From Microcaldota archaeon (GTDB taxonomy: Archaea > Micrarchaeota > Micrarchaeia > Micrarchaeales > CABMGC01), in NCBI GenBank assembly GCA_030040335.1, contig JASHTX010000059.1:1-33404 (forward strand): a stretch of DNA of 33,404 bases, read 5' to 3'. Of this stretch, positions 3,837 through 18,925 are shown piece by piece. A model generated the notes under the pieces. That model worked only from the letters and a program-made list of their open reading frames with translations, was not told where the DNA came from and searched no databases. Position numbers and translations under genes: made by a program. Position 1 is the stretch's first letter. Each line of letters begins with the position of its first letter.

Positions 3837-4879
3837 TCAATGCCTTCGAGGATCGACTGCCAGTTGATTACCCTGTAAACCTTGCTGGTATCAAGGCTCC
3901 TGAGCGGGAGGTCTCCGATCAGCACCTTGTCGATCACGCCGCGCTCGCTCTTAGGCTTTTCAGCGACCATGTCCTCCTTGTAGTAGTTCCAGAACCTCTT
4001 CATCGCGGTCTCCAGGTCGTCGAAGACGCCTACCCCGAAGAAATCTCCGCTACCTACAAGCTGGTTCACGATCACGTATCTGCTTACCAGAGAATATTCG
4101 TCATCTGTCCTGAAGAAATCCCTCGTCGACCTCGCGTCCTGCTCGAACCTGCTCGAGATTATGTACTTGCCAAAGATCGTCATGACCGTGAACGGATCCA
4201 GCTTCTCCATCACGAGCGTGAACCTCTTTATGTAGCCGAGCTCGACGAGCTTCTTGAAGTTGTAGGCTATGGTGTTGAAGTGCATGCCGGTCTCCTTGGA
4301 AAGCTGCTGGAACGTGGCGCGCGAGTTCTTGTTGAGCAGCAAGAGCAGCGTCTTGTACTTCTCGGGCAGGTCGAGGCGCTCCAGGAGCTCGTTCCGCAAG
4401 GGATAGAAGCCGAGAGGCCTCCAGGCGACCTCTGACGGGTTCCACGAAACCCCGTAGTCTGCGAGGTGAATCTGCAGCCCGCGGTCCCAGTGGACATAGT
4501 CGTCCCTAGACTGCGCGTTTGCGTATATGAACATGTCGTACGAGCCCTTGATCGTCGCAACTATCTGCGGTATGTGAAAGCGCGAGAAGACCTGCTTGAG
4601 GTAATCGTCGCTCGGCCTCTTGTTGAACTTGATGATTATTATGTGCGGGTTGAACAGGCCGAGCTTGTCCTCGTCCAGCTCCAGCGTGTACCTTATGCCA
4701 AGCTCCTTCTCAAGCCTGGCAAGCCTGTCCTTGGCCGTCTTCCTGGAGAGACCGACGCTCTTCGCCAGCTCTGACATCGTTATCCTGGAGTTTTCGGAGA
4801 GCAGGCGGAGCATCTTCCTGGAAAGAAGGTTGTACTTGTCGTTGAACTGGCTCTTGAACTCACGACCAGGCTTTGGCAT
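3833..4879 (-). CDS. Lrp/AsnC-like transcriptional regulator with two HTH regions (paralogue of 7322-8374)
   Basis: N-terminal SRKMLRLLSENSRITMSELAKSVGLSRKTAKDRLARLEKELGI (Lrp-type HTH) and a second HTH-like segment KYKTLLLLLNKNSRATFQQLSKETGMHFNTIAYNFKKLVELGYIKRFT; collinear with the 7322 ORF. Confidence 0.85.
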   Translation of the reverse strand: MPKPGREFKSQFNDKYNLLSRKMLRLLSENSRITMSELAKSVGLSRKTAKDRLARLEKELGIRYTLELDEDKLGLFNPHIIIIKFNKRPSDDYLKQVFSRFHIPQIVATIKGSYDMFIYANAQSRDDYVHWDRGLQIHLADYGVSWNPSEVAWRPLGFYPLRNELLERLDLPEKYKTLLLLLNKNSRATFQQLSKETGMHFNTIAYNFKKLVELGYIKRFTLVMEKLDPFTVMTIFGKYIISSRFEQDARSTRDFFRTDDEYSLVSRYVIVNQLVGSGDFFGVGVFDDLETAMKRFWNYYKEDMVAEKPKSERGVIDKVLIGDLPLRSLDTSKVYRVINWQSILEGIE

Positions 4880-4994
4880 GCTTATGCTTCGCAGCGCAGA
4901 TTTTTTAACCTATTACAAAGTAACAAAAACTTCAGTAAAAGTGGTATTTTTCGGTTAGTATATAAGCAGCCTTTCCCAAGTGTAAGCGAGAAGG

Positions 4995-6230
4995 ATGAAG
5001 ATTCTGACGCGCGGTTACCTGTACATGGTGCTTTCCCTGATTCTGGGGGCGCTCTTCCCTGTAGTGCTAGTCTTTGCCAAAGGCGTCGACATCTTCGAGT
5101 TCTTCATGTTGAGCTATCTCCTGGCAATACCGTTCGCCTTGCTGCTGGTAATAGCCTCGAAGAGGTGGAAGACATTCACTGCCTACGTGACTGACCCTAA
5201 GAGGCTCGGAATAATAACGCTCATAGGCCTGCTCACATACGCGTCGGTGGGCATAGGACTCTTCTACGCAGAGCAGTTCGTGAGTGCGTCGCTGGCCACT
5301 GTGGTCTTCAGGACATCGCCGCTGCTCATGCTGCTGCTCCTGCCCACAGTGCTGAACGAGAGGCTGACCAAAAGCCAGATTGCAGCGCTGTGTCTAGCGT
5401 TTGCGGGCATATACATAGCGCTGAGCGGAGGGCAACTTTTCGGCATATTCGGCAACGCGAACATATCGATCGTGCTCTTCCTGGTTGCAGCGGCTTTTGC
5501 CTATGCGCTCGGAGCCGTGCTGATAAGAAAATACGTCTTCAACCTGGAGAGTGCGATGCTGATATTCAACATGGCCCTCTTCGTGATCTTTGCAGCGCTC
5601 TACGTTGCGACAGGCGTGAACTCGAGCCAGCTGCAGCTTTCTCAGCTCGGGGCGATATTCTATGTAGGCATCTTCACGAACATCTGCAGCTTCTACATGT
5701 ACTTCAATTCGCTCAGGATACTCAAGATGACAGTTGCCACTAACTTCCTCTTCCTCTCCCCGTTCCTCACGCTGCTCTTCGCAAGCGTGCTGCTGGGCGA
5801 GGTAATACAACCGTACTACGTGGTCATAGCGCTGCTGGTCGGGGCCGGCCTCATCATCCAGAGGTATGACAGGGTAGGAGGCAGCTACCGCACAAGGGAT
5901 TCCAAGAGACTCAGGAACTTCGCAATATTCGACGTCACCGGGGCTTTCGTCAACACCGGTGAGCTTGCAATCCAACATGCAATCCAGAAGGGCGGCAGGG
6001 TCCTGGCGCTCAAGCTCGATGCCGGGCAGAAGCAGAAGGTAAACTCGCTGATATCAGACGGTGGACACTCAGGCGTTTTTACAGATGAGCATCCGCGAAT
6101 AACCGAAGAATCCACTTTCGTCAAGGAGATAGTGGGGGCCAAAGAGAATGAGTTCGTGGTAATGAAAGCAGGAGATACTGAGGAAGGAGAGCGCTTCTTC
6201 GAGACGCTTTCAGATGCAATGGGAGTGTAA
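4995..6230 (+). CDS. EamA/DMT-type multi-helix transporter with about 110-aa hydrophilic C-terminal extension
   Basis: About ten hydrophobic segments; LATVVFRTSPLLMLLLLPTVLNERLTKSQIAALCLAFAGIYIAL resembles the EamA repeat. TATA-like TAGTATATAAGC near 4957-4968. Confidence 0.8.
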   Translation: MKILTRGYLYMVLSLILGALFPVVLVFAKGVDIFEFFMLSYLLAIPFALLLVIASKRWKTFTAYVTDPKRLGIITLIGLLTYASVGIGLFYAEQFVSASLATVVFRTSPLLMLLLLPTVLNERLTKSQIAALCLAFAGIYIALSGGQLFGIFGNANISIVLFLVAAAFAYALGAVLIRKYVFNLESAMLIFNMALFVIFAALYVATGVNSSQLQLSQLGAIFYVGIFTNICSFYMYFNSLRILKMTVATNFLFLSPFLTLLFASVLLGEVIQPYYVVIALLVGAGLIIQRYDRVGGSYRTRDSKRLRNFAIFDVTGAFVNTGELAIQHAIQKGGRVLALKLDAGQKQKVNSLISDGGHSGVFTDEHPRITEESTFVKEIVGAKENEFVVMKAGDTEEGERFFETLSDAMGV

Positions 6231-6320
6231 GCGGTAATAGGCCACTTCTCATATTAACAGCAATATCTGTTTAAAATGGAAAAATCGGAGGGTATTTATA
6301 TTTGCTAAGCGTAATAGTAT

Positions 6321-6410
6321 TGCGGGTTTTGAGTTATCAAATCTTTTTGATACGCTAAAACCCCACCACCCGGAATGGGGTGCGTCGCAAGATGCGCCCT
6401 CTTCTTTTTA
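6321..6410 (+). ncRNA. Candidate structured non-coding RNA
   Basis: Intergenic between convergent genes. TATA-like ATTTATAT at about 6294-6301. Paired arms GGGTTTT 6324-6330 / AAAACCC 6357-6363 enclosing TATCAAA 6335-6341 / TTTGATA 6346-6352; then 9-bp hairpin GGGTGCGTC-GCAA-GATGCGCCC (6378-6399) followed by TCTTCTTTTT. Confidence 0.45.
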
Positions 6411-6447
6411 ATTGCTTATTTTGAGAGACAGGGTATGGCAAGCAGTC

Positions 6448-6927
6448 CTAGAGCTCTTTCTCGCACCAGTACCGCATCTCTCCTTCTCCGTAGTAGTTGA
6501 AGACCTCCTTGGCGATCCTGTAACCCTGCTTCCTGAAAAACGCAATGCCGGTCTTGTTCGTCTTGTTTGTTGCCAGGCCGATCTTCTTCCTGCCGAGGTT
6601 TATCGCCTTCTCCTCAGCGAAGCGCATCATCTCGCTCCCTATTCCCCTGCGCCAGTGCGGTGGGTGGACGCATATTCTGAGCACCTCAAACTCGTCGGTC
6701 TCGGGCTTGTCGACCAGAGAGATGTAGGAGATGTAGTTGCCTGCCTTGTCCTTCCAGAGCCAGGTCTCCGAATCGTGCTCCACAGTCAGGTGGGTGAGCA
6801 GATCTTCCTTCGTCTCCAGGTGAAGGAGAGGGTGGTGGGCCTTCGAGACCTCTGCGTCGAAAGCGTGCAGCGAATCCAGGTTTTCCTTCACATCGAGCTT
6901 GCTTACATTGAGTCCGTCTTCGCTCAT
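6448..6927 (-). CDS. GNAT-family N-acetyltransferase
   Basis: EVLRICVHPPHWRRGIGSEMMRFAEEKAINLGRKKIGLATNKTNKTGIAFFRKQGYRIAKEVFNYYGEGEMRYWCEKEL: canonical GNAT motif A (RRGIGSEMM) and a C-terminal FFRKQGY segment. Confidence 0.9.
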   Translation of the reverse strand: MSEDGLNVSKLDVKENLDSLHAFDAEVSKAHHPLLHLETKEDLLTHLTVEHDSETWLWKDKAGNYISYISLVDKPETDEFEVLRICVHPPHWRRGIGSEMMRFAEEKAINLGRKKIGLATNKTNKTGIAFFRKQGYRIAKEVFNYYGEGEMRYWCEKEL

Positions 6928-6952
6928 GCAAGCACCCAGCCGTAAAGAGTAG

Positions 6953-6976
6953 ACGGCGCGGCTTGCGCTGCGCCGT
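6953..6976 (-). promoter_or_regulatory. Strong hairpin in the leader of the 6927 GNAT gene
   Basis: On the minus strand ACGGCGCAGC-GCAA-GCCGCGCCGT: 10-bp stem (one G-U/G-T pair) with GNRA-type GCAA loop, about 25 nt upstream of ATG at 6927. On the plus strand the same hairpin is followed by T6. Confidence 0.55.
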
Positions 6977-7001
6977 TTTTTGGAGCGGGCGCGGAATTTT
7001 T

Positions 7002-7029
7002 AGCTTTAAGGGTGGGTGACATTAAAGCT
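7002..7029. repeat. Perfect 8-bp inverted repeat AGCTTTAA-N12-TTAAAGCT
   Basis: Read directly at 7002-7009 and 7022-7029; upstream of the minus-strand GNAT gene near its TATA-like region. Confidence 0.6.
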
Positions 7030-7208
7030 GAGGAGTCATAAAAGATTACGCTCCGTATCCGGCCCATGTATGGTTATAAACTTGTATATATAAATGCGGA
7101 CCGAATTTGGGTAAAAAAGAGACACTTTGAGGATAATTTGTCGTTTTCGCAATCTACTTCACTCTAGGAACTCCGTAGATATAATAAAAATACTGAATTA
7201 TGGAGCTA

Positions 7209-7234
7209 GACAGGTTGACAATCTGTAACCTGTC
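7209..7234 (+). promoter_or_regulatory. Inverted repeat / leader hairpin upstream of the second regulator
   Basis: GACAGGTT (7209-7216) - N10 - AACCTGTC (7227-7234), perfect 8-bp arms, downstream of TATA-like TAGATATAATAAAAATA (about 7174-7190). Confidence 0.5.
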
Positions 7235-7321
7235 CTCTATGCATGTGTGCTATAACAGGGCAATCAGCTTGTTTTTTGTGGAAAACGCAACTTCTAAAGG
7301 CTTTGCGTGCAATAGATATGC

Positions 7322-8374
7322 ATGGAAGAGGAGTCGCTGGAGTTCTCGAGCAGGTTCAATGAGAAGTACAGCCTGGTATCAAGGAAAATGATACGCATGC
7401 TGTCAGAGAACTCGAGGCTGACCAGCACTGAGATTGCCGGCAGGCTTGGGATATCAAGGCAGGCGGTCGCGAAGAGGCTCAGCAGGTTGGAGAAGGAATT
7501 TGGGATCAGGTACGTGCCTGAGTTCAACGAGGACAAGCTTGGCATATCGAACCCTCACATCGTAATGGTGAAGTTCAGGGAGAAACCAAGCCAATCGTAT
7601 CTTGCAGACATCTTCTCCCGCTCTTACATAACTCAGGTCGTGGTGTCTGTGAAGGGTACCTACGACCTCCTCATATACGCAAACTCGCTTTCGAGGGACG
7701 CGTACATACACTGGGACAAGGGAATGCAGATACTGCTCGCAGACTACGAGCCCTCATGGCGCTCTTCTGACATAGGGCATGCGCAGCTCGGCTTCTATCC
7801 TTTGCGGAACGATCTCCTAGGCAGGGTCTCCATTCCAGAGGAGTACAAGACGATACTGAAGGCCCTGAACACCGATGCACGCGCATCATTCGAGTCGATC
7901 TCCAAGCAGTCTGGCATGCGCGTAAACAGGGTTGTCTACAACTTCAAGAAGCTGCTGAAGCTCGGTTACATAAAGCGCTTCACGCTTGCGATGACAAAAC
8001 TGGAGAATGCGGTGATAATGACGCACTTCGCCAAGTATAATATCTCTAGGACTTTCGAGAATGATGCAAAGGGGACCAGACCGGTCTACAGGGCCGACGA
8101 CCAGTACCCCTTGGTCAGTAGATACATAATAACAAATCAGCTCGTGGGCAGCTACGACTTCTTCAGCGCAGGAGTCTTCGACAGCCCGGAGGTAGCGTAC
8201 AAGAGGAACATCGCCTGGTTCAGGCACCAGCTGAAACCCGAGCGGCCGAAGCTGGTATACGGAATAGTGGACAAGGTCATCGTAGGCAATCTGCCTGTGA
8301 GGAGCGTAGACACATACAAGGAATACGATGCGATAGTGTGGTCGCCTGATTTTAGGAAGGAGGAACATCTCTGA
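7322..8374 (+). CDS. Lrp/AsnC-like transcriptional regulator with two HTH regions (paralogue of 3833-4879)
   Basis: SRKMIRMLSENSRLTSTEIAGRLGISRQAVAKRLSRLEKEFGIRYVPEFNEDKLGISNPHIVMVKF aligns along its length with the 3833 ORF, including SRDxYxHWDxGxQIxLADYxxSW and GFYPLRNxLL. Confidence 0.87.
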   Translation: MEEESLEFSSRFNEKYSLVSRKMIRMLSENSRLTSTEIAGRLGISRQAVAKRLSRLEKEFGIRYVPEFNEDKLGISNPHIVMVKFREKPSQSYLADIFSRSYITQVVVSVKGTYDLLIYANSLSRDAYIHWDKGMQILLADYEPSWRSSDIGHAQLGFYPLRNDLLGRVSIPEEYKTILKALNTDARASFESISKQSGMRVNRVVYNFKKLLKLGYIKRFTLAMTKLENAVIMTHFAKYNISRTFENDAKGTRPVYRADDQYPLVSRYIITNQLVGSYDFFSAGVFDSPEVAYKRNIAWFRHQLKPERPKLVYGIVDKVIVGNLPVRSVDTYKEYDAIVWSPDFRKEEHL

Positions 8375-9929
8375 GTTCGACCGAATCATTTCCTATCACT
8401 ATGACCTTCGCATATTTTTCACCTCTCCTGCGCAGCATTCTTTCCGTGTCTTCAGGCCTTTTCAGCCCTGTCTCGTACTCTATCGCGATCTTCTCGCCGT
8501 CCTTGTAGGCAATCACGTCGGGTCCGTAGGCATTATTGTAAACCATGTTTCTGATGCCGTTCTCGGTGAGATACTTGCTTATCAGGCTGACCATGATGTC
8601 GTGCTCTGCGCTGTTCCTCGGCATTGCGATATACCATGCACCTTCAAAGGGTGGCTCGGACACAACATGGTATCCGATTATTCCGGTTTTTATCAACTCG
8701 ATCAGCGACCTCGTCACTTCTTCCTGTTCGAATCCCTCGTTTCTGAGTCTCTCTTCGAGCTCGCGTTTGCTCACTATCCCCTTTGCCAGATCAACTATCC
8801 GGTGGACAGGGTCCCTGATTGCTGGCCTAAATCGCAGGCACCTAACTATTTTAGGACTCCTGTCATATGCCAGCTGCACCAGCGCGCAGCCGCGCTGGAG
8901 CTCCCTCAGCGCCTTCCTCACTTCGATGAACCTGTTGTACTCAGTGCCGGCTGCAATTATGTTGGCGATGTAGTTCTGCTCTTCAGGTTCCCTCTGCGTG
9001 AATGCGATCAGCGTAGCTGCGTTGCTCCTTATTTCCTTGTCCAGCGCCTTTGCCCGCTGCGCTATGGCGATCATGCCTAGGCCATACTTCCTGCCCTCTG
9101 CAACCAACCTTGCCACGACCGGGCTGTCCTGGAGTTTTTCCGCCTCGTCTATGACAATATAGAACCTCCTTTTGCTTCCTGATGCGCTGCCCTGCAGGAG
9201 GTTTGCATATATCTTCCTTAGTATACTCTCCATATAGAGCGCCTGTGCTTCTGAGCTATGCAGACTTGCGAGCGAGAAGACAGACCTGGAGTTCAGCAGG
9301 CTGCCAACGCTGACGCTCCTCTGGAACTGCTCTCCGGCTACTGCGAGCAGGCGCTTCTCAAGCGCGTCGAGCACGTTCTGCTCCGGCTTTGATCTTGACC
9401 TGCGCTTGAAGACCTTTATCGTGTAAAGCAGGCTGTGCATATTCGGCGTGCGCTCCTTGACAGCGCTTATCCAGTACGTGTATGCGATGCACCTGTAGAG
9501 CGTGCCAGCCTGCACCTCTCCGAGATGGAGCACACGCTTGAACATGCCGGTTATCTCTGATGTGCGTTCCCTCTCTGTTAGGCCGTCAAGGTCAAAGATA
9601 TTCACAGCGTGTATACTCGCGTCGTAGATCACGGCATGAATATCTTTCGCACCCTCCACATACTCTGCGTGCGGGTCCAGTACAAGAAAGTTTGCTCCGT
9701 GCCCTGCTAGCTGCCTGAGGATCAGCTTGCATGCGTTGCTCTTGCCGGCCCCACTCTCACCGGTTATCATCACGTGCCGGTTCGTACTTTTGTCCAGGTT
9801 AAGCCTCATGGATTTGAAGTACCTTCTTTGCCATTGCCATCTCAAAAGACCAAAGCGCCTCACTAGGCGCAACTCGCGATGGACTTTGCCGAGAGTTATA
9901 GAGTTTCTGTTTTTGAAAAAAGTAAACAT
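8352..9929 (-). CDS. HerA/VirB4-type ATPase with C-terminal HTH-like and putative PD-(D/E)XK-like region
   Basis: Start assigned at MFTFFKNRNS (ATG at 9929) rather than the ORF start. Walker A GESGAGKSNACK, HerA-like LVLDPHAEYVEG, Walker B FYIVIDEAEKL. C-terminal GPDVIAYKDGEKIAIEYETGLKRPEDTERMLRRRGEKYAKVIVIG. Confidence 0.87.
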   Translation of the reverse strand: MFTFFKNRNSITLGKVHRELRLVRRFGLLRWQWQRRYFKSMRLNLDKSTNRHVMITGESGAGKSNACKLILRQLAGHGANFLVLDPHAEYVEGAKDIHAVIYDASIHAVNIFDLDGLTERERTSEITGMFKRVLHLGEVQAGTLYRCIAYTYWISAVKERTPNMHSLLYTIKVFKRRSRSKPEQNVLDALEKRLLAVAGEQFQRSVSVGSLLNSRSVFSLASLHSSEAQALYMESILRKIYANLLQGSASGSKRRFYIVIDEAEKLQDSPVVARLVAEGRKYGLGMIAIAQRAKALDKEIRSNAATLIAFTQREPEEQNYIANIIAAGTEYNRFIEVRKALRELQRGCALVQLAYDRSPKIVRCLRFRPAIRDPVHRIVDLAKGIVSKRELEERLRNEGFEQEEVTRSLIELIKTGIIGYHVVSEPPFEGAWYIAMPRNSAEHDIMVSLISKYLTENGIRNMVYNNAYGPDVIAYKDGEKIAIEYETGLKRPEDTERMLRRRGEKYAKVIVIGNDSVELRDVPPS

Positions 9930-10022
9930 AATTTCACCAATGCTGCCCGACTTTAGAGGGTGAACATCGCAGCGGGCAGGAATAAAGCCAACCCTTTTAT
10001 ATCGGGAAAAGACAATGCCAGC

Positions 10023-10733
10023 ATGGAAAAGGGCAGGTCGCAAGAGGGCAGGACGTCTGAATTCATGGGTGTGAAGTACCTGCGGCGCCAGCACGAGCTG
10101 GAGCTCATAGGCACCAACATCTACACCTCTGGAGCTGCACATTCTGGCATCGGAAACATTCACGAATTACTTGACAGCGAGTGGATAAAGGATACGGGAG
10201 GCAGGAGCGGCAAGAAAGCAACGTCAGAGTACCAGTACCTCTGTTTCCCGCCCAGCCATCAACTCAGGACAGGGCTTGTCAGCGAGGAGGTGCTTGATGA
10301 CATAAAGAGCAATGGGAAAACGGTGCTGAGCGTGGGCGCTGGCTACGCCTTCACCGAACGAGTGTTGGTCAAGAAGCTTGGAGTGAATGCGGAGCAGATA
10401 ACGCTGGCAGACCGCGCGAACGTTATGCCGAAGGGTTTCAAGACCCTTCTCTTCGACATGGAAGAGGAATGGAAGCTCGGAGGCAAGAAGTATGACTACA
10501 TACTCTTCGCCCAATCCATAATACTGCCGAACGAGAGGTCGAAAAGGATGGGCAGGATACTAGAGAAGGCATACGCTGCGCTGAACGATGAAGGGCAGAT
10601 CAGAATCACCGGCACGTTCAGCCCAGAAGAAATAACAAACCTCAGAATATGGCTCGGAAAGAGGCATCCTGAAGCCGAGCTTGCAACAGACGACGAATTG
10701 TACCTCATTGTGATAAGGAAGGGCATACGGTGA
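10023..10733 (+). CDS. Uncharacterised protein with SAM-methyltransferase-like Rossmann core
   Basis: VLSVGAGYAFTERVLVKKLGVNAEQITLADRANVMPKGFKTLLFDMEEEWKLGGKKYDYILFAQSIIL resembles motif I-III order. ATG at 10023 preferred over GTG 9960: TATA-like CTTTTATATCGG near 9990-10000 implies a leaderless transcript. Confidence 0.55.
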   Translation: MEKGRSQEGRTSEFMGVKYLRRQHELELIGTNIYTSGAAHSGIGNIHELLDSEWIKDTGGRSGKKATSEYQYLCFPPSHQLRTGLVSEEVLDDIKSNGKTVLSVGAGYAFTERVLVKKLGVNAEQITLADRANVMPKGFKTLLFDMEEEWKLGGKKYDYILFAQSIILPNERSKRMGRILEKAYAALNDEGQIRITGTFSPEEITNLRIWLGKRHPEAELATDDELYLIVIRKGIR

Positions 10734-12140: not shown

Positions 12141-12752
12141 ATGACTGGCACAAAAGAATCAGATAGTAAGGTATTGGACGTCCGCAGCAGGGCCATACTT
12201 GCCAACAGAGGCGTGGTCGGACTGGCGCACATACAGAAAGACCAGATACCAGACCAACTCAGCGAACCCTACATGAAGATGCTCAACAGGACCGATAGGA
12301 AGGAAGGCGATGCGGGGCAATTCGGCCTAGGGATGGCCCATTCGGTGATAGTGCATCTGGGCGCCCTGCCTGCGCCAAAACGCGTTATGCTCATGATCGA
12401 GGAGGACGCAAACCAGAAAACCGTGAATTTCTTCGCTGCAGTGCTCTACGGGCAGGAGGACTTTAACACAGTCCTCTCCTATTACGAGTTTTCATCGGGC
12501 AATGAAAAAGGGCAGGGTCTGAAGACTGTAGATCTTAAGGAGGAGAAGCCGGCACCTGGAAACGCGCCGCTCTATGCGCTGGTTATAGGACCATACAAGC
12601 TGGCCTCTGATGCATACCGCGACAGCATGGCGGTTGAGGAGGACAAGATGCTTGCGATTAGAAGATTTCGGGAAGAGTTTGGGCTGTCGAGCAAAGCGCA
12701 GGTCGAGATACCAAGCCCTGCAACTGAGCCTAGAGCTGAGCACCCGAACTGA
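12141..12752 (+). CDS. Hypothetical protein
   Basis: 203-aa ORF; no family recognised; convergent overlap with nfo. Confidence 0.68.
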   Translation: MTGTKESDSKVLDVRSRAILANRGVVGLAHIQKDQIPDQLSEPYMKMLNRTDRKEGDAGQFGLGMAHSVIVHLGALPAPKRVMLMIEEDANQKTVNFFAAVLYGQEDFNTVLSYYEFSSGNEKGQGLKTVDLKEEKPAPGNAPLYALVIGPYKLASDAYRDSMAVEEDKMLAIRRFREEFGLSSKAQVEIPSPATEPRAEHPN

Positions 12753-13569
12753 CGATCCTCCTAACCAGCCTCAGCTCGCCCTCTCCGGAGTGCTCCCCAG
12801 GGGTCTCGAGTATCATGGGCTTCGAACGTAGTTCCTCGTTTGCCAAAAGGGTTTCGAAACCGCTCCTGCCTATCTTACCGAAGCCTATGTTCTCGTGCCT
12901 GTCCAGTCCAGAGCCGCACTGGTACTTCGAATCGTTGAGATGTATTACGTGTATTCTGGAGACGTCAAGGGTGTGGAGCACGTCATCAATAACCTCTGGC
13001 TTTGTTATGTCGTAGCCTGCCGCGAAGATGTGACAAGTGTCTATGCAGAAACCAAGGTTTTTGGGGCCTATGCTGTTGTACAGCCCTACAAGGTCATCCA
13101 GGTCTGAGCCGACGCTGTTCCTCTGCCCAGCCTCGTTCTCCATAAGAATGTAGGTGTTCTTCGCTGCAGATGTCGCAAGCCTTACCGCTTCCCTCACTCG
13201 CTCGAATCCCTTCTCTTTGCCCTCGCCCAGATGGCTGCCCAGGTGTATGACAAGGTACTTCACGCCGAGCGCTTCGCACCTGTAGACTGCGTCTAGATAA
13301 GCCGCCTTGGTCTTCTCATAGACCTCTTCCCTGGGGGATGCGGGATTGGGGAGATAGGACATGTGTGCTATGACAGGCCTTATGCCGTATGATCTCTCCT
13401 TTGCTGTGAACCTCTCTAGCTCTCCGGTCTCGAGTGCTTTGGTGCTCCAGCTGCGTGGGTTCGTAAGGAAGAGCTGCATGCATGTGCATCCCAGATCCCT
13501 GGCGCGATCGAAGGCAAGGTCAAGGCTGGCAGAAATAGAAACGTGGTAGCCGATGCGGAGCATGGGCAT
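12730..13569 (-). CDS. nfo: Endonuclease IV (apurinic/apyrimidinic endonuclease)
   Basis: LRIGYHVSISASLDLAFDRARDLGCTCMQLFLTNPRSW, YLVIHLGSHLGEGKEKG, ILMENEAGQRNSVGSDLDDL, GFCIDTCHIFAAGYDI, HVIHLNDSKYQCGSGLDRHENIGFGKIG: canonical motifs. True start may be M3. Confidence 0.96.
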   Translation of the reverse strand: MPMLRIGYHVSISASLDLAFDRARDLGCTCMQLFLTNPRSWSTKALETGELERFTAKERSYGIRPVIAHMSYLPNPASPREEVYEKTKAAYLDAVYRCEALGVKYLVIHLGSHLGEGKEKGFERVREAVRLATSAAKNTYILMENEAGQRNSVGSDLDDLVGLYNSIGPKNLGFCIDTCHIFAAGYDITKPEVIDDVLHTLDVSRIHVIHLNDSKYQCGSGLDRHENIGFGKIGRSGFETLLANEELRSKPMILETPGEHSGEGELRLVRRIVSSGAQL

Positions 13570-13605: not shown

Positions 13606-14340
13606 TCACTCTTGCTTCCCGGAATTGCCCGCCGGAAGCCGGTTCGCCTTGATCACTGAGCTGAGCTCGGCAATCTCGGTCCCGGTGACATTGAGATATT
13701 CAACAAGGTACTCTTGCAGTCCTCTGTACTCCTTCTTTCCGTATCCGCTGGCATAGATGAATGCACCGACAAGCGGCATCAGAGGTGCCGAATCGTCTCC
13801 GATTACGGCCCTGAGATTCGTCTTTCTCACCAGCGACACAGAGTCCTGAATCAACTCGCGCGTTAGCGCATAAGCATAGCCCACAGCCTCTATGCCTTCA
13901 ACCAGTTTCTGCGCGGTCGTCTCTATCCACCTTTCTTCTTTAATCTGCTGCTTTTCCTGCCCCCATGTCTGCCTTCCGGGTTTGTGACGATTCTTCTCTG
14001 TTACGGGCTCAATCTGGCTTGCTGCAGGGTCGGCTTTCTCAGTACTGACTGCTACTTTGGCCTGTACAGGTTTTGGCGCGCTCGCTGCCCTGGTCTGCTC
14101 CAGCTCCTCGAGCCGGTCCACCTCGCTCCTCAACTTTGCGAGCCTTATCAGATTCTCGACTCTCTCGCTGGCGTCCTTGTATGGGACGCGCTCTGGATCC
14201 AGCCAGTCCTTGCCAGTCTGGACCACGTCTCCGCATACATTGCAGACGCCAACCCCGCGCTTGTCGTACTTGACTGAGCCGGAGTTGCACTTCAGACACG
14301 GAGTCGGGCTTCTCAGCTTATACTTGTTGTTTTCACTCAT
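13606..14340 (-). CDS. Divergent TFB-like protein: TFIIB-type zinc ribbon plus single cyclin-like C-terminal region
   Basis: PCLKCNSGSVKYDKRGVGVCNVCGDVVQTGKDWLDPERVPY (CxxC-N15-CxxC followed by D/W/PE block like TFB ribbon), charged linker, then LMPLVGAFIYASGYGKKEYRGLQEYLVEYLNVTGTEIAELSSVI. Start at 14340 from TATA-like CATAAATAAGC at about 14414-14424. Confidence 0.68.
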   Translation of the reverse strand: MSENNKYKLRSPTPCLKCNSGSVKYDKRGVGVCNVCGDVVQTGKDWLDPERVPYKDASERVENLIRLAKLRSEVDRLEELEQTRAASAPKPVQAKVAVSTEKADPAASQIEPVTEKNRHKPGRQTWGQEKQQIKEERWIETTAQKLVEGIEAVGYAYALTRELIQDSVSLVRKTNLRAVIGDDSAPLMPLVGAFIYASGYGKKEYRGLQEYLVEYLNVTGTEIAELSSVIKANRLPAGNSGKQE

Positions 14341-14453
14341 TTTCACACCGGCGCGGGTATGTGCATTACCAGCAAGTCCGCGTTTTCCCGAGAGCAAGTA
14401 GATACTGTTTTCCGCTTATTTATGCATTGACTTTGGATCCTGAGCAGATGCGG

Positions 14454-15680
14454 TCAGGCTTTGAGCGCGACCTTCGAGCCGGTCTTGCTCATGGTAATCG
14501 CCTCTGCTGTATCGCGTATCACGTGGTTCCTCACCTGCGCCTCGTTAGATGCGCGCTTGAGCAGGCCGCTCTCGTACTCAGTTCCCTTGCCCGCAAGGTA
14601 GATGTAAGCGAAGGTCATCGCACGCGTAGATGGCGGGTTCTTGCCCAGCAGTTCGCTGAGCGTGGCAAAATCGGTTTCAGAGGCCAGTTTCATTGCCGGA
14701 CCTCTCAGTTCCTCTGGCAGGCTGCCGAGCTGCACCTTGCCTATTTCATCGATGACCTCTTTCTTGTCCCGCCCTGTCTTTAGCCCTTCTGCTACATCTC
14801 TTCCCATAGCCTGGCTTTGCTCTCGTGCATCAGGCTGAACTGGAGAACTATCATCTCGCAAATGCGGAGGTTCTGGAGGCTTGGGTTCCCTGGAATCGGG
14901 GATATCTGGTTGAATAGGAGGCAGCGGTTGCCCCGCTTCAGAGTATGCGGGAACAGTCTGCGCATGCTTGCTGGCTGCCCTGTGGGATCTGTTATTGACC
15001 GTAGTGGTATGCAGGCCGAGCCCATCCAGCTCGATTTTCAGTATGCGGAAAGCGGATTCGATGGTTCCTGTAGAAAAGCCGGAGGCAGATGCGAAATTTA
15101 CCATCGTCTTGCCCTCCTGTTCCATGAGAGAAGCGGCGTACATGCAAACGGCCGTGACCTTGACCGGACTAGTATTAATTGCGAAAAATGCCTTCCTTCC
15201 CTCGGCCTTGTCGATGATCTCCATCGTCCGCTGCGCTGTCCTCTCCGACACGCCAGTTTGGAAACTTAGTCTCTTGACAAAGTCCTTGGGTCCCAGATCC
15301 TTCTCTGTAAGGCTTAACAGAGAATGCAGCTCATTGTAGTCGCTCCCGAGTTTGGCCCTGTTCTCGCCAAAATCCCCGGGAAACATTCCAGCAAACTCCG
15401 GGAGCGTTATGGGAATTCCGATCACCCTTATTGCGGAATAGACGGCAACATTGGCTGCTCGTTGGTACGACCGCGTAGACGCGAAGTTCCTATCAAGGCC
15501 TTCCATGTAGTGGCGCGCGGCCAGCGTTTTCACTTCTCGTGCATCGCCGAGCCCGTAAACCTCGAAGAGCGTATCCAGCGCCGCGAAAGGCTGAGTCAGG
15601 TATGGATGGTTTGAAGGTATTTCAGATATGCCTGCCGACGTCGCATTTTGTCGCATGGCTGAGTCTGAATCTCCTGACAT
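14454..15680 (-). CDS. TFB-like core (two cyclin-like repeats) lacking an N-terminal zinc ribbon, with long C-terminal extension
   Basis: TRSYQRAANVAVYSAIRVIGIPITLPEFAGMF (repeat 1) and FVKRLSFQTGVSERTAQRTMEIIDKAEGRKAFFAINTSPVKVTAVCMYAASLMEQEGKTMVNFASASGFSTGTIESAFRIL (repeat 2) follow the TFB pattern; no CxxC pairs at the N-terminus. Confidence 0.72.
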   Translation of the reverse strand: MSGDSDSAMRQNATSAGISEIPSNHPYLTQPFAALDTLFEVYGLGDAREVKTLAARHYMEGLDRNFASTRSYQRAANVAVYSAIRVIGIPITLPEFAGMFPGDFGENRAKLGSDYNELHSLLSLTEKDLGPKDFVKRLSFQTGVSERTAQRTMEIIDKAEGRKAFFAINTSPVKVTAVCMYAASLMEQEGKTMVNFASASGFSTGTIESAFRILKIELDGLGLHTTTVNNRSHRAASKHAQTVPAYSEAGQPLPPIQPDIPDSREPKPPEPPHLRDDSSPVQPDAREQSQAMGRDVAEGLKTGRDKKEVIDEIGKVQLGSLPEELRGPAMKLASETDFATLSELLGKNPPSTRAMTFAYIYLAGKGTEYESGLLKRASNEAQVRNHVIRDTAEAITMSKTGSKVALKA

Positions 15681-15743
15681 ACCCTCAGAAGCTATTCCGT
15701 TCTAGCCTATTTAACCATTTGTAGAGGTTCGTTAGCAAGGCGC

Positions 15744-16184
15744 TTAATGAATGAGAGTGCTCTTTATCCTCTCCCTTAAAGCTGCGCCGTGCAGCTGCTT
15801 GTCGGCAGTTAAGAATTCATCGCAATTGGCATGCGCAAAGGATGCAATCTGGAGCGCGTCTGCGATGTAGATGTGGTTCCTGACCACATAGCCTAGGGAG
15901 TTAATGATGAGTTCGGAAGAGAGCCCAACAAATTCGATCCTGTTTGACGCTGCGAGCGTCTTGATTTCGTTCAGCAGCTCATCAACCAAAGCTTCAAGCT
16001 TTACCTTTCCTGTTCTTTCCTGCTTATCAAAAATCCCTACAATCTCCCCTATGTTCCAATAAGAAGTATAGATGACCAAATTTCCGACCCTCGCCTCCTC
16101 GAATATCTTGTCTATGCTTGGTGATCCATCCTCGAAGATGTACCTTTTGACGAGACTGCTAGTGTCCAAGTATACGCTTCTCAC
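15744..16184 (-). CDS. PIN-domain ribonuclease toxin (VapC-like)
   Basis: MRSVYLDTSSLVKRYIFEDGS ... HIYIADALQIASFAHANCDEFLTADKQLHGAA: PIN acidic residues YLDTSSLVK, ADAL, TADKQL. Confidence 0.9.
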   Translation of the reverse strand: MRSVYLDTSSLVKRYIFEDGSPSIDKIFEEARVGNLVIYTSYWNIGEIVGIFDKQERTGKVKLEALVDELLNEIKTLAASNRIEFVGLSSELIINSLGYVVRNHIYIADALQIASFAHANCDEFLTADKQLHGAALRERIKSTLIH

Positions 16185-16446
16185 GATCTTCCCTCATTTC
16201 CCTCAGCACCTTGGTGGAGTTAAGGCCTGTTCTTATCTTTCCCCTTCTTCTGATGACCTCTTCAGAGCTTATGTATCTTAGTTTTACACCGAATTGTCTC
16301 GCCAGGTCTTCTATCCAAGAATCTCCGATTGACCTGAAAAGGTCCTCAACGGCCTTGCTTACGCTCTCTCCTTTCCCTACCAGGCGTACTCTGGCATTCT
16401 TCAGCAACTCATCATCCACCGAAAGGGTGAGCTTCCTTTTGACCAT
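16159..16446 (-). CDS. VapB-like antitoxin
   Basis: MVKRKLTLSVDDELLKNARVRLVGKGESVSKAVEDLFRS: ribbon-helix-helix-like N-terminus; overlaps the PIN gene by 26 bp. Confidence 0.83.
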   Translation of the reverse strand: MVKRKLTLSVDDELLKNARVRLVGKGESVSKAVEDLFRSIGDSWIEDLARQFGVKLRYISSEEVIRRRGKIRTGLNSTKVLREMREDREKRILGH

Positions 16447-17042: not shown

Positions 17043-17216
17043 ATGAAGGCGCAACTAAGTCTTGAGATTCTTATCAGCATGTCACTGTCGCTCCTGATAG
17101 TGCTCGCGATTCTGCAGTATTTTAGTGCGGCGCGGGTGCTGATGGTAAAAACAGAAGGCGCGCTGGTTGGCATGGCAAACAGTGCACGGGCATACGAGGG
17201 GAAGCCGGTCACATGA
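17043..17216 (+). CDS. Small pilin-like protein with class III signal peptide
   Basis: Translated by hand: MKAQLSLEILISMSLSLLIVLAILQYFSAARVLMVKTEGALVGMANSARAYEGKPVT; KAQLSLE followed by hydrophobic helix. Not in the ORF track because it is only 57 aa. Confidence 0.75.
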   Translation: MKAQLSLEILISMSLSLLIVLAILQYFSAARVLMVKTEGALVGMANSARAYEGKPVT

Positions 17217-17581
17217 AGCTTGTTATAATATCATTGGATCTGATGCTAGCCCTGCCCATCCTTGCGCTTGGCCTTGCAGTCCTCTTCTCGAGCATCGTGA
17301 ACTCTCAAACATATCTGCTTGCCTTTGCGGGATTGCAGAACAAGACACTGGACCTTTTCACGACCTCGCAGCAGATCGCGCACGCTCTGGATGCGAATCA
17401 GGTGAACGGAACCACTGCTGCAGAGCTCGCGTCCGATATTGCCTTGGGAAATGGAGTTGCTGCAGGAGTATTGGATGTTGGCTCTGCTGCTGATTGTGTC
17501 AACGCCCTCACGCTCTGCAGGATCGTGACGGTATCAGGCGCAGCAAGGCTGCTGGTGGTGAGCTATGAAAATGCAGGCTAG
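17213..17581 (+). CDS. Small membrane/secreted protein of the pilin-like operon
   Basis: ATGA overlap with the preceding gene; N-terminal hydrophobic helix MKLVIISLDLMLALPILALGLAVLFSSIV. Confidence 0.7.
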   Translation: MKLVIISLDLMLALPILALGLAVLFSSIVNSQTYLLAFAGLQNKTLDLFTTSQQIAHALDANQVNGTTAAELASDIALGNGVAAGVLDVGSAADCVNALTLCRIVTVSGAARLLVVSYENAG

Positions 17582-18533
17582 CATCGAGTTCCTGCTCGTA
17601 CTGAGCGCTATTGCAGCACTGAGTCTCAGCGTAATCTCCCTTTACGGGAAGCAGCTCTTTGCAGAGACAGGGGCATTTGCGGAAGTGGCCAATGCGTCTC
17701 AGGCAAATATCTCACTCTCGAACTACACGCTTCCTTACTACAGCCAGGCGGAGCAGGAAGCGTACTCGGCAGAGATAGTCGGGAGAAACGAGAGACTGGC
17801 GTACGTGATAAGCCAGCCTTCGAACATTACCAACCTTACAGAAAGAAGCCATTGTACATACTATGGCACGTACTATCCTCCGCCCGGCATTGGCGAGCAG
17901 TGCGGCACCTATAACGCCTGGTATTACCTTGCCGCGAACTCCCTCTGCCCGGACAGCAGCGCATACTGCATCTTTGCGAACGACACGGGATACGCAGTTG
18001 AGAACGCGGGCCCGGCCAGAAACTATATCTACAATTTCACTCTGGAGATAAGCGCGCAGGGCGACCGGATGCTGGCATATCTGCAGAGCGGGCAGAACGA
18101 GTCTCCGTTAATGCTTGGCAACACAACCGTGGGCTACGCAAGGGTCGTTGATGTAAGCAGCGGCGAGCCTGGCCTTAGCTTGAGCCTGATAAGCTACGGC
18201 GGCACCTACTCGCTGCTTAACGAGAGCCTTTATGGGCAATACGCGCAGTCCGAAAGCCTCGCGTATCCAGTTTTGAGCTACTACAACGGAAGCGAGGTTG
18301 ACTCTGACACGCAGGCAACCATACAGGAAGCCGTATACTCTTTCACCAAGGCTTCGAAGGAACTGAGGTATGGTCCTGCTTTGCATGCTCAGTGTGATGT
18401 GGCAGGGTCGCAGTACGTATGCAATGCAACCTACCCATTCTTCTACGTAATCGATGCCAACGTCTCCGGCGGCCTCGGAATCCAGAATGAGACCCTCTAC
18501 TACCTGGGTTCCGTGATAAGGGTGTATGCATGA
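17565..18533 (+). CDS. Large pilin-like secreted protein with class III signal peptide
   Basis: MKMQASIEFLLVLSAIAALSLSVISLYGKQ: archaeal pilin-type QxSIEF motif plus helix; extracellular region rich in N-x-S/T sequons and cysteines. Confidence 0.78.
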   Translation: MKMQASIEFLLVLSAIAALSLSVISLYGKQLFAETGAFAEVANASQANISLSNYTLPYYSQAEQEAYSAEIVGRNERLAYVISQPSNITNLTERSHCTYYGTYYPPPGIGEQCGTYNAWYYLAANSLCPDSSAYCIFANDTGYAVENAGPARNYIYNFTLEISAQGDRMLAYLQSGQNESPLMLGNTTVGYARVVDVSSGEPGLSLSLISYGGTYSLLNESLYGQYAQSESLAYPVLSYYNGSEVDSDTQATIQEAVYSFTKASKELRYGPALHAQCDVAGSQYVCNATYPFFYVIDANVSGGLGIQNETLYYLGSVIRVYA

Positions 18534-18925
18534 AGGCCCAGTTCGCAACCATAGAAGCAACGCTGTCGTTTGCGGTGATAGCTGTTGCAGCGATTTTCGT
18601 CTCACAGCAGATCGGCGCGGCAAACAGAAGTTTCCAAGCTGAGGAGAGCAGGCTTGCGCAGGCTGCTGCAATCTACGACATAGCCAATGAGTTTGAGAGG
18701 AATATCAGCGCAAACTACTGCCTTGCCTCATACCTCTCCCAGGATTCAGTATGCATGAGCTCTCTTGTAAGCAACTACGAGAAGGTCTATGGGCTGGCGA
18801 CAATTGCAATAAGCGGAAATATGACCGCTGCCTCAAGCGCTCCGGAGAACGGAACCGCTTGCTTTGAGGTTTACCTGCAGGCGGAGAACTCGACAGGCAG
18901 CGTCTGCATTGCTGCGGGTGGTTGA
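18530..18925 (+). CDS. Pilin-like protein
   Basis: MKAQFATIEATLSFAVIAVAAIFVSQQIG; 4-bp ATGA overlap with the preceding gene. Confidence 0.72.
   Translation: MKAQFATIEATLSFAVIAVAAIFVSQQIGAANRSFQAEESRLAQAAAIYDIANEFERNISANYCLASYLSQDSVCMSSLVSNYEKVYGLATIAISGNMTAASSAPENGTACFEVYLQAENSTGSVCIAAGG

Follow-up and report, generated by a model that had tools for sequence, protein, structure and literature searches.

A TFB core without its zinc ribbon beside a separate ribbon protein in a Micrarchaeota genome: candidate TFB-derived regulators

Two neighbouring genes in an archaeon whose nearest relatives are Candidatus Micrarchaeota divide the parts of TFB between them, an unusual architecture in which a 408-aa TFB core paralog, here P0001, stands beside a 244-aa zinc-ribbon protein, here P0002. 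The window, that is, the whole stretch of DNA analysed, is 33,404 nucleotides long and is contig C100 of a 907 kb genome in 103 contigs that is ~84% complete. In our best reading, P0002 resembles Sulfolobus TFB3 and P0001 is a DNA-blind TFB core. The chance that the two proteins are fast-evolving TFB-derived regulators and not a basal factor is, in our judgement, about even, and the pair probably regulates transcription start instead of performing it, because the core has lost its DNA reading and the ribbon sits apart. Both open reading frames lie on the minus strand at the positions originally predicted and are intact, and the coding frame has the highest codon score among the six frames. The features of the pair are the following:

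14454..15680, minus strand: P0001, with a first cyclin repeat (cyc1) at ~aa 26-122, a second (cyc2) at 131-220, a linker and a C-terminal helical domain at ~285-408
13606..14340, minus strand: P0002, with a zinc ribbon at ~aa 12-41, a charged linker and a C-terminal helical cyclin-like domain at ~127-233
14454..14825, minus strand: aa 286-408 of P0001, its C-terminal domain, which resembles a cyclin repeat in the pooled comparison
15015..15069, minus strand: recognition helix of the second repeat of P0001 (~aa 204-222), with G at the V283 position and E208 at the R286 position
14218..14307, minus strand: TFB-type zinc ribbon of P0002, C15-C18/C33-C36, CxxC-x14-CxxC
15681..15743, minus strand: gap 5' of P0001, with a TATA-like TTAAATA at -34
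14341..14453, minus strand: 113-bp gap 5' of P0002, with a TATA-like ATAAAT at -26 from TTG 14397

An alternative start of P0002 at TTG 14397 is possible and would give a protein of 263 aa. Given their own TATA-like boxes, P0001 and P0002 may be transcribed separately.

P0001 contains two cyclin-fold repeats in TFB order. The Pfam TFIIB repeat (PF00382) matches it at 5e-8, above the curated cut-off, and the NCBIfam TFIIB model covers aa 34-218 at 4.8e-16, but far under the family cut-off. The protein is 28-29% identical to the archaeal TFB core of 1ais/1d3u, and phmmer aligns aa 47-214 with this Pyrococcus core (1ais_B) at 4.8e-15; a core HMM built from 21 canonical Micrarchaeota TFBs matches aa 44-219 with an E of 1e-12 among 1287 ORFs. 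The AlphaFold model of the core (~aa 25-220) has a pLDDT of ~90, and Foldseek retrieves 1d3u_B with it (4.8e-8, prob 1.00). The zinc ribbon and the B-reader are absent from P0001, the ribbon being found instead on P0002, and upstream of P0001 there is no place for one, since only 63 bp separate this gene from a PIN gene. Pfam, phmmer, the HMM and Foldseek therefore agree with the original prediction that this gene encodes a two-cyclin TFB core without a zinc ribbon. Whether a full-length TFB exists elsewhere in the genome, a question raised with that prediction, is answered by a canonical TFB on contig C53; the genome also has one TBP, so P0001 and P0002 are additional, and the pair as the sole TFB of the genome was rejected. 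The idea that a frameshift or an assembly error had split a single TFB was likewise rejected, because the ribbon gene lies 3' of the core gene and the flanks keep the order that they have in congeners.

In P0002, four cysteines stand at positions 15, 18, 33 and 36. A zinc-ribbon HMM derived from Micrarchaeota TFBs places this protein third of 1287 ORFs (E 5e-4), below just two real TFBs and above the second TFB of the congener G001 described below. The predicted TFIIB-like ribbon was thus recovered, with a CxxC spacer of 14 residues, not 15. P0002 alone has no TFB match in Pfam, NCBIfam or PDB, and the core HMM gives no cyc1-cyc2 match. Two marks of a TFB3-type protein are present, in that the TFB ribbon is kept and the BRE-binding HTH, or second cyclin repeat, is missing. 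The C-terminal part is modelled as about five helices with a pLDDT of ~60-80, and its top Foldseek matches are to TFIIB and weak (E at least 0.11).

The pair lies in a variable slot, the stretch between an AP endonuclease and the pilins, the content of which turns over between congeners. The AP endonuclease, the pilin trio and a HerA-like ATPase are all conserved in the genus. In two genomes of the genus, the same slot holds one intact second TFB (TFB2) in like orientation. The genes concerned are as follows:

12730..13569, minus strand: AP endonuclease family 2 (PF01261), left flank of the slot, 52-59% identical in five congeners
17213..18925, plus strand: three class-III-pilin-like genes, conserved right flank, found close to the slot in five congeners
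8352..10163, minus strand: HerA/CedD-like ATPase, 64-71% identical in six congeners
15744..16446, minus strand: PIN-domain/DUF6364 genes in the slot, putative toxin-antitoxin pair
L029:6433-7842 (L088): TFB2 of G001 (JAKASU01, isolate YP1.bin77), 469 aa, with ribbon, cyc1, cyc2 and C-terminal domain
L028:6901-8334 (L056): TFB2 of G003 (JAMCYP01, deposited as 'Marsarchaeota'), 477 aa, with ribbon, cyc1, cyc2 and C-terminal domain
L029:5584-6399, L028:8396-9256, L045:6334-7317, L047:2922-3746 and L047:3806-4693: members of a possible slot family

The small DUF6364 protein is encoded 5' of the PIN-domain protein, and the two are likely a toxin-antitoxin pair. The slot family, which is possibly fast-evolving, comprises proteins of 270-330 aa in four congeners that were grouped by eye; the two members tested have no Pfam match. 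The top NCBIfam match of the HerA-family ATPase is CedD (1e-18, well under the cut-off). The first ~70-80 aa of its ORF fall outside the homology, and its first start codon is probably ~70-80 codons too early. Together with the nearby pilins, this ATPase may mark a DNA-uptake-like locus that the genus has conserved.

The repeats of TFB2 are well recognised by Pfam, and its core shares 60-69% identity with Nitrososphaeria TFBs but only 39-41% with the canonical Micrarchaeota TFB; among 303 phylum genomes, the best matches of the G003 protein outside itself are ~42% identical. The simplest reading of these identities is that TFB2 is of Nitrososphaeria type and was acquired horizontally. P0001 is not demonstrably nearer to TFB2 than to canonical TFB: among 61 diagnostic columns, 13 are Nitrososphaeria-like and 9 canonical-like, and its branch in the tree is very long, at ~8 substitutions/site. 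No closer relative of P0001 was found in the 303 Micrarchaeota phylum genomes (E 1e-12). With P0002 as query, the 79 genomes of the family gave only ribbons belonging to canonical TFBs and the 131 of the order gave no match, and six short peptide patterns run over the genome contigs found no orthologue of it. The original prediction had staked itself on a conserved pairing in relatives, and there it failed: neither protein has an orthologue in the genomes searched, and the pair was found only in the genome of the window (303 phylum genomes for the core, 79 family and 131 order genomes for the ribbon protein).

The isolation of the pair bears on the idea of two unrelated acquisitions, in which P0001 would be a divergent TFB paralog, P0002 a separate zinc-ribbon regulator and their adjacency incidental. 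That neither protein is close to any single TFB lineage and that whole P0002 has no detectable relatives would agree with it, but the location in the TFB2 slot, the TFB-type ribbon and the common type of C-terminal domain speak against it, and we regard this explanation as very unlikely. A viral or plasmid origin found no support: the phage searches gave no matches, and the plasmid matches of P0001 are haloarchaeal TFBs with <=~31% identity among the matches listed. PADLOC gave no defence-system match for P0001 or P0002.

Several other TFB-like genes were encountered in the searches. At L030 (G024:C9), positions 4161-7249 hold another TFB cluster within the family, with a canonical TFB in the middle, a 334-aa divergent TFB that keeps its ribbon and has a core net charge of 0, and a TFB-like fragment of 215 aa that is truncated where the contig ends. 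In the window genome, a 124-aa ORF at L032 (G000:C1), 1526-1900 on the minus strand, has a weak TFIIB-repeat match (E 0.0014, under the cut-off) and is a possible stand-alone cyclin repeat. A 232-aa TFB-repeat-like protein at L090 (JAHJCL010000036), 6559-7257, is 30% identical over part of its length; its contig is labelled Patescibacteria, which suggests misbinning or transfer.

The C-termini of P0001 and P0002 had been described as alike, a claim that is weak for the two sequences compared directly (Smith-Waterman score 45 vs 28.6+-5.1, with 5/500 shuffles reaching the score) and strong when four domains are pooled. The pooled C-termini of P0001, P0002 and the two congener TFB2s score 30.7 in hhalign against a TFB cyclin-repeat profile, a value with some selection built in because the segments were chosen for their repeat-like look as C-terminal domains; of the two sets of 120 control quartets, the shuffled ones reached at most 15.2 and those assembled from the ends of other real ORFs at most 17.2. 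Most pairs of C-termini alone beat their own shuffles against this profile. The individual domains gave no significant match to it, leave-one-out C-terminal HMMs did not recover the fourth member significantly, and in 79 family genomes the C-terminal-domain model found its four training members only. The AlphaFold models of the two C-terminal domains are too uncertain to define a fold, with a pLDDT <60 in P0001. Since the pooled C-termini match the cyclin profile far above the controls, a third cyclin repeat at the C-termini of both proteins is likely. The Nitrososphaeria TFBs nearest to the congener TFB2 end directly after the second repeat, so that, judged from these sequences, the extra domain was gained either within Micrarchaeota or by a donor outside the sampling. 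A literature search that covered few subscription papers returned nothing relevant on a three-cyclin TFB.

The second cyclin fold of TFB contacts the BRE (PMC7289017). In P0001 the scaffold of the core is largely kept, with the residue class retained in 35/43 conserved hydrophobic or small columns, while 6/18 conserved basic columns are still basic, and the net charge of the core is -1, whereas the TFBs used for comparison (canonical, Nitrososphaeria and congener second TFBs) range from +8 to +16. The alignment places a G at the position of human V283 and E208 at that of R286, the two TFIIB residues that we take to be those reading the BRE. Both congener TFB2s still have arginine or lysine at the BRE-reading site, and the BRE-reading recognition helix expected of a TFB is lacking in P0001. 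As the BRE residues, the basic residues and the positive charge are lost, what P0001 binds is most likely a protein partner and not promoter DNA.

These losses weigh on the interpretation of the pair as a genuine two-subunit alternative TFB, in which the P0002 ribbon and the P0001 core would join via their C-terminal domains and serve special promoters. The complementary domains, the adjacency of the genes on one strand, the similar C-terminal domain in both proteins and the fused version held by congeners in the slot would all suit such a factor. Set against them are the missing BRE-reading residues and most of the conserved basic ones, the B-reader and B-linker, recognisable in neither protein, the separate TATA-like boxes and the pairing that is not conserved, and we find a two-subunit TFB of this kind unlikely. 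What stands of the original reading is the split architecture; a two-subunit initiation factor, although possible, has become less likely for the core half than TFB-derived regulators, and the other option then offered, a competing or anti-TFB factor, fits better, as does a TFB3-like regulator. Rather unlikely, too, is a split factor of two interacting proteins that would derive from a horizontally acquired three-cyclin TFB and pick BRE-free promoters. The division of roles belonging to it, with P0002 as the RNAP-docking subunit and P0001 as a TBP-docking subunit of three cyclin repeats and no DNA reading, is similarly improbable.

The fast divergence of the pair, its restriction to one genome in a slot that turns over between congeners, and the ribbon of the G001 TFB2, which is also degenerating and has no fourth Cys, are what one would expect if the two genes were decaying, now functionless remnants of an accessory second TFB. 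With the pair known from a single genome, decay in a hypervariable slot is a serious rival, although we consider it doubtful. Both ORFs are intact with codon bias in frame, and the TATA-like boxes stand at plausible distances. The pattern is also unlike random decay, because the basic residues have been lost selectively while the scaffold and the four zinc cysteines were kept.

For the preferred reading, that of TFB-derived regulators, we infer the descent from TFB2, the partners and the direction of regulation as follows. The ancestor would have been a three-cyclin TFB2-like gene such as two congeners keep in the slot. Tandem duplication and subsequent reciprocal loss would have left P0001 without the ribbon and P0002 without cyc1-cyc2, yielding 'core + third repeat' and 'ribbon + third repeat' in the observed order. 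By analogy with TFB3 of Sulfolobus, P0002 would dock to RNA polymerase through its zinc ribbon and either rival or assist the canonical TFB. P0001, with its BRE-blind core, would sit on TBP or on the canonical initiation complex. The two proteins, or other partners, may meet at the cyclin-like domains of the C-termini.

If this is true, a minimal archaeal genome has dismantled a basal initiation factor and put the parts to new use, with docking to RNAP on one protein of a natural pair and binding to TBP/DNA on the other, so that the roles of ribbon and core could be tested apart. The congener TFB2, with its Nitrososphaeria-type core and probable third cyclin repeat, would be a further unusual form.

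Paralogs of basal factors have taken on other functions elsewhere, as in TFS4, a basal-factor paralog that has become an RNAP inhibitor (PMC5715097), and paralogous TFBs diversify promoter choice in haloarchaea and others (PMC7289017). TFB3 of Sulfolobus keeps the ribbon, lacks the B-finger and HTH and in vitro competes for RNAP with TFB1 (PMC2246294); it appears to activate in trans together with canonical TFB (PMC7289017) and is reported to control the ups pilus and ced DNA-import genes (PMC6934391). P0002 is like TFB3, itself not a basal factor, in being a TFB paralog with a ribbon in a genome that also has a canonical TFB and in having no B-finger or BRE-binding HTH, a likeness that is architectural and drawn from the published papers. 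The pilin operon and the HerA/CedD-like ATPase in its neighbourhood recall the control of ups/ced by TFB3 in Sulfolobales, a parallel that is suggestive only. TFB3 is a single protein, whereas P0002 stands beside a ribbonless core protein, P0001, and no account of such a protein partnering TFB3 was found in the literature; a further difference is that P0002 has a C-terminal domain grouping with the additional third repeat and not with the first. P0001 shares the two-cyclin fold and its order with the archaeal TFB/TFIIB core (1ais, 1d3u) and differs from it in having no ribbon or B-reader, a near-neutral charge, an extra C-terminal domain and lost BRE residues. The congener TFB2 is like the pair in its slot, its orientation to the AP endonuclease and the kind of its C-terminal domain, and unlike it in being a single protein with the DNA-reading helix kept. 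The multiple TFBs of haloarchaea and others are full-length factors, whereas here the parts of one are divided over two proteins.
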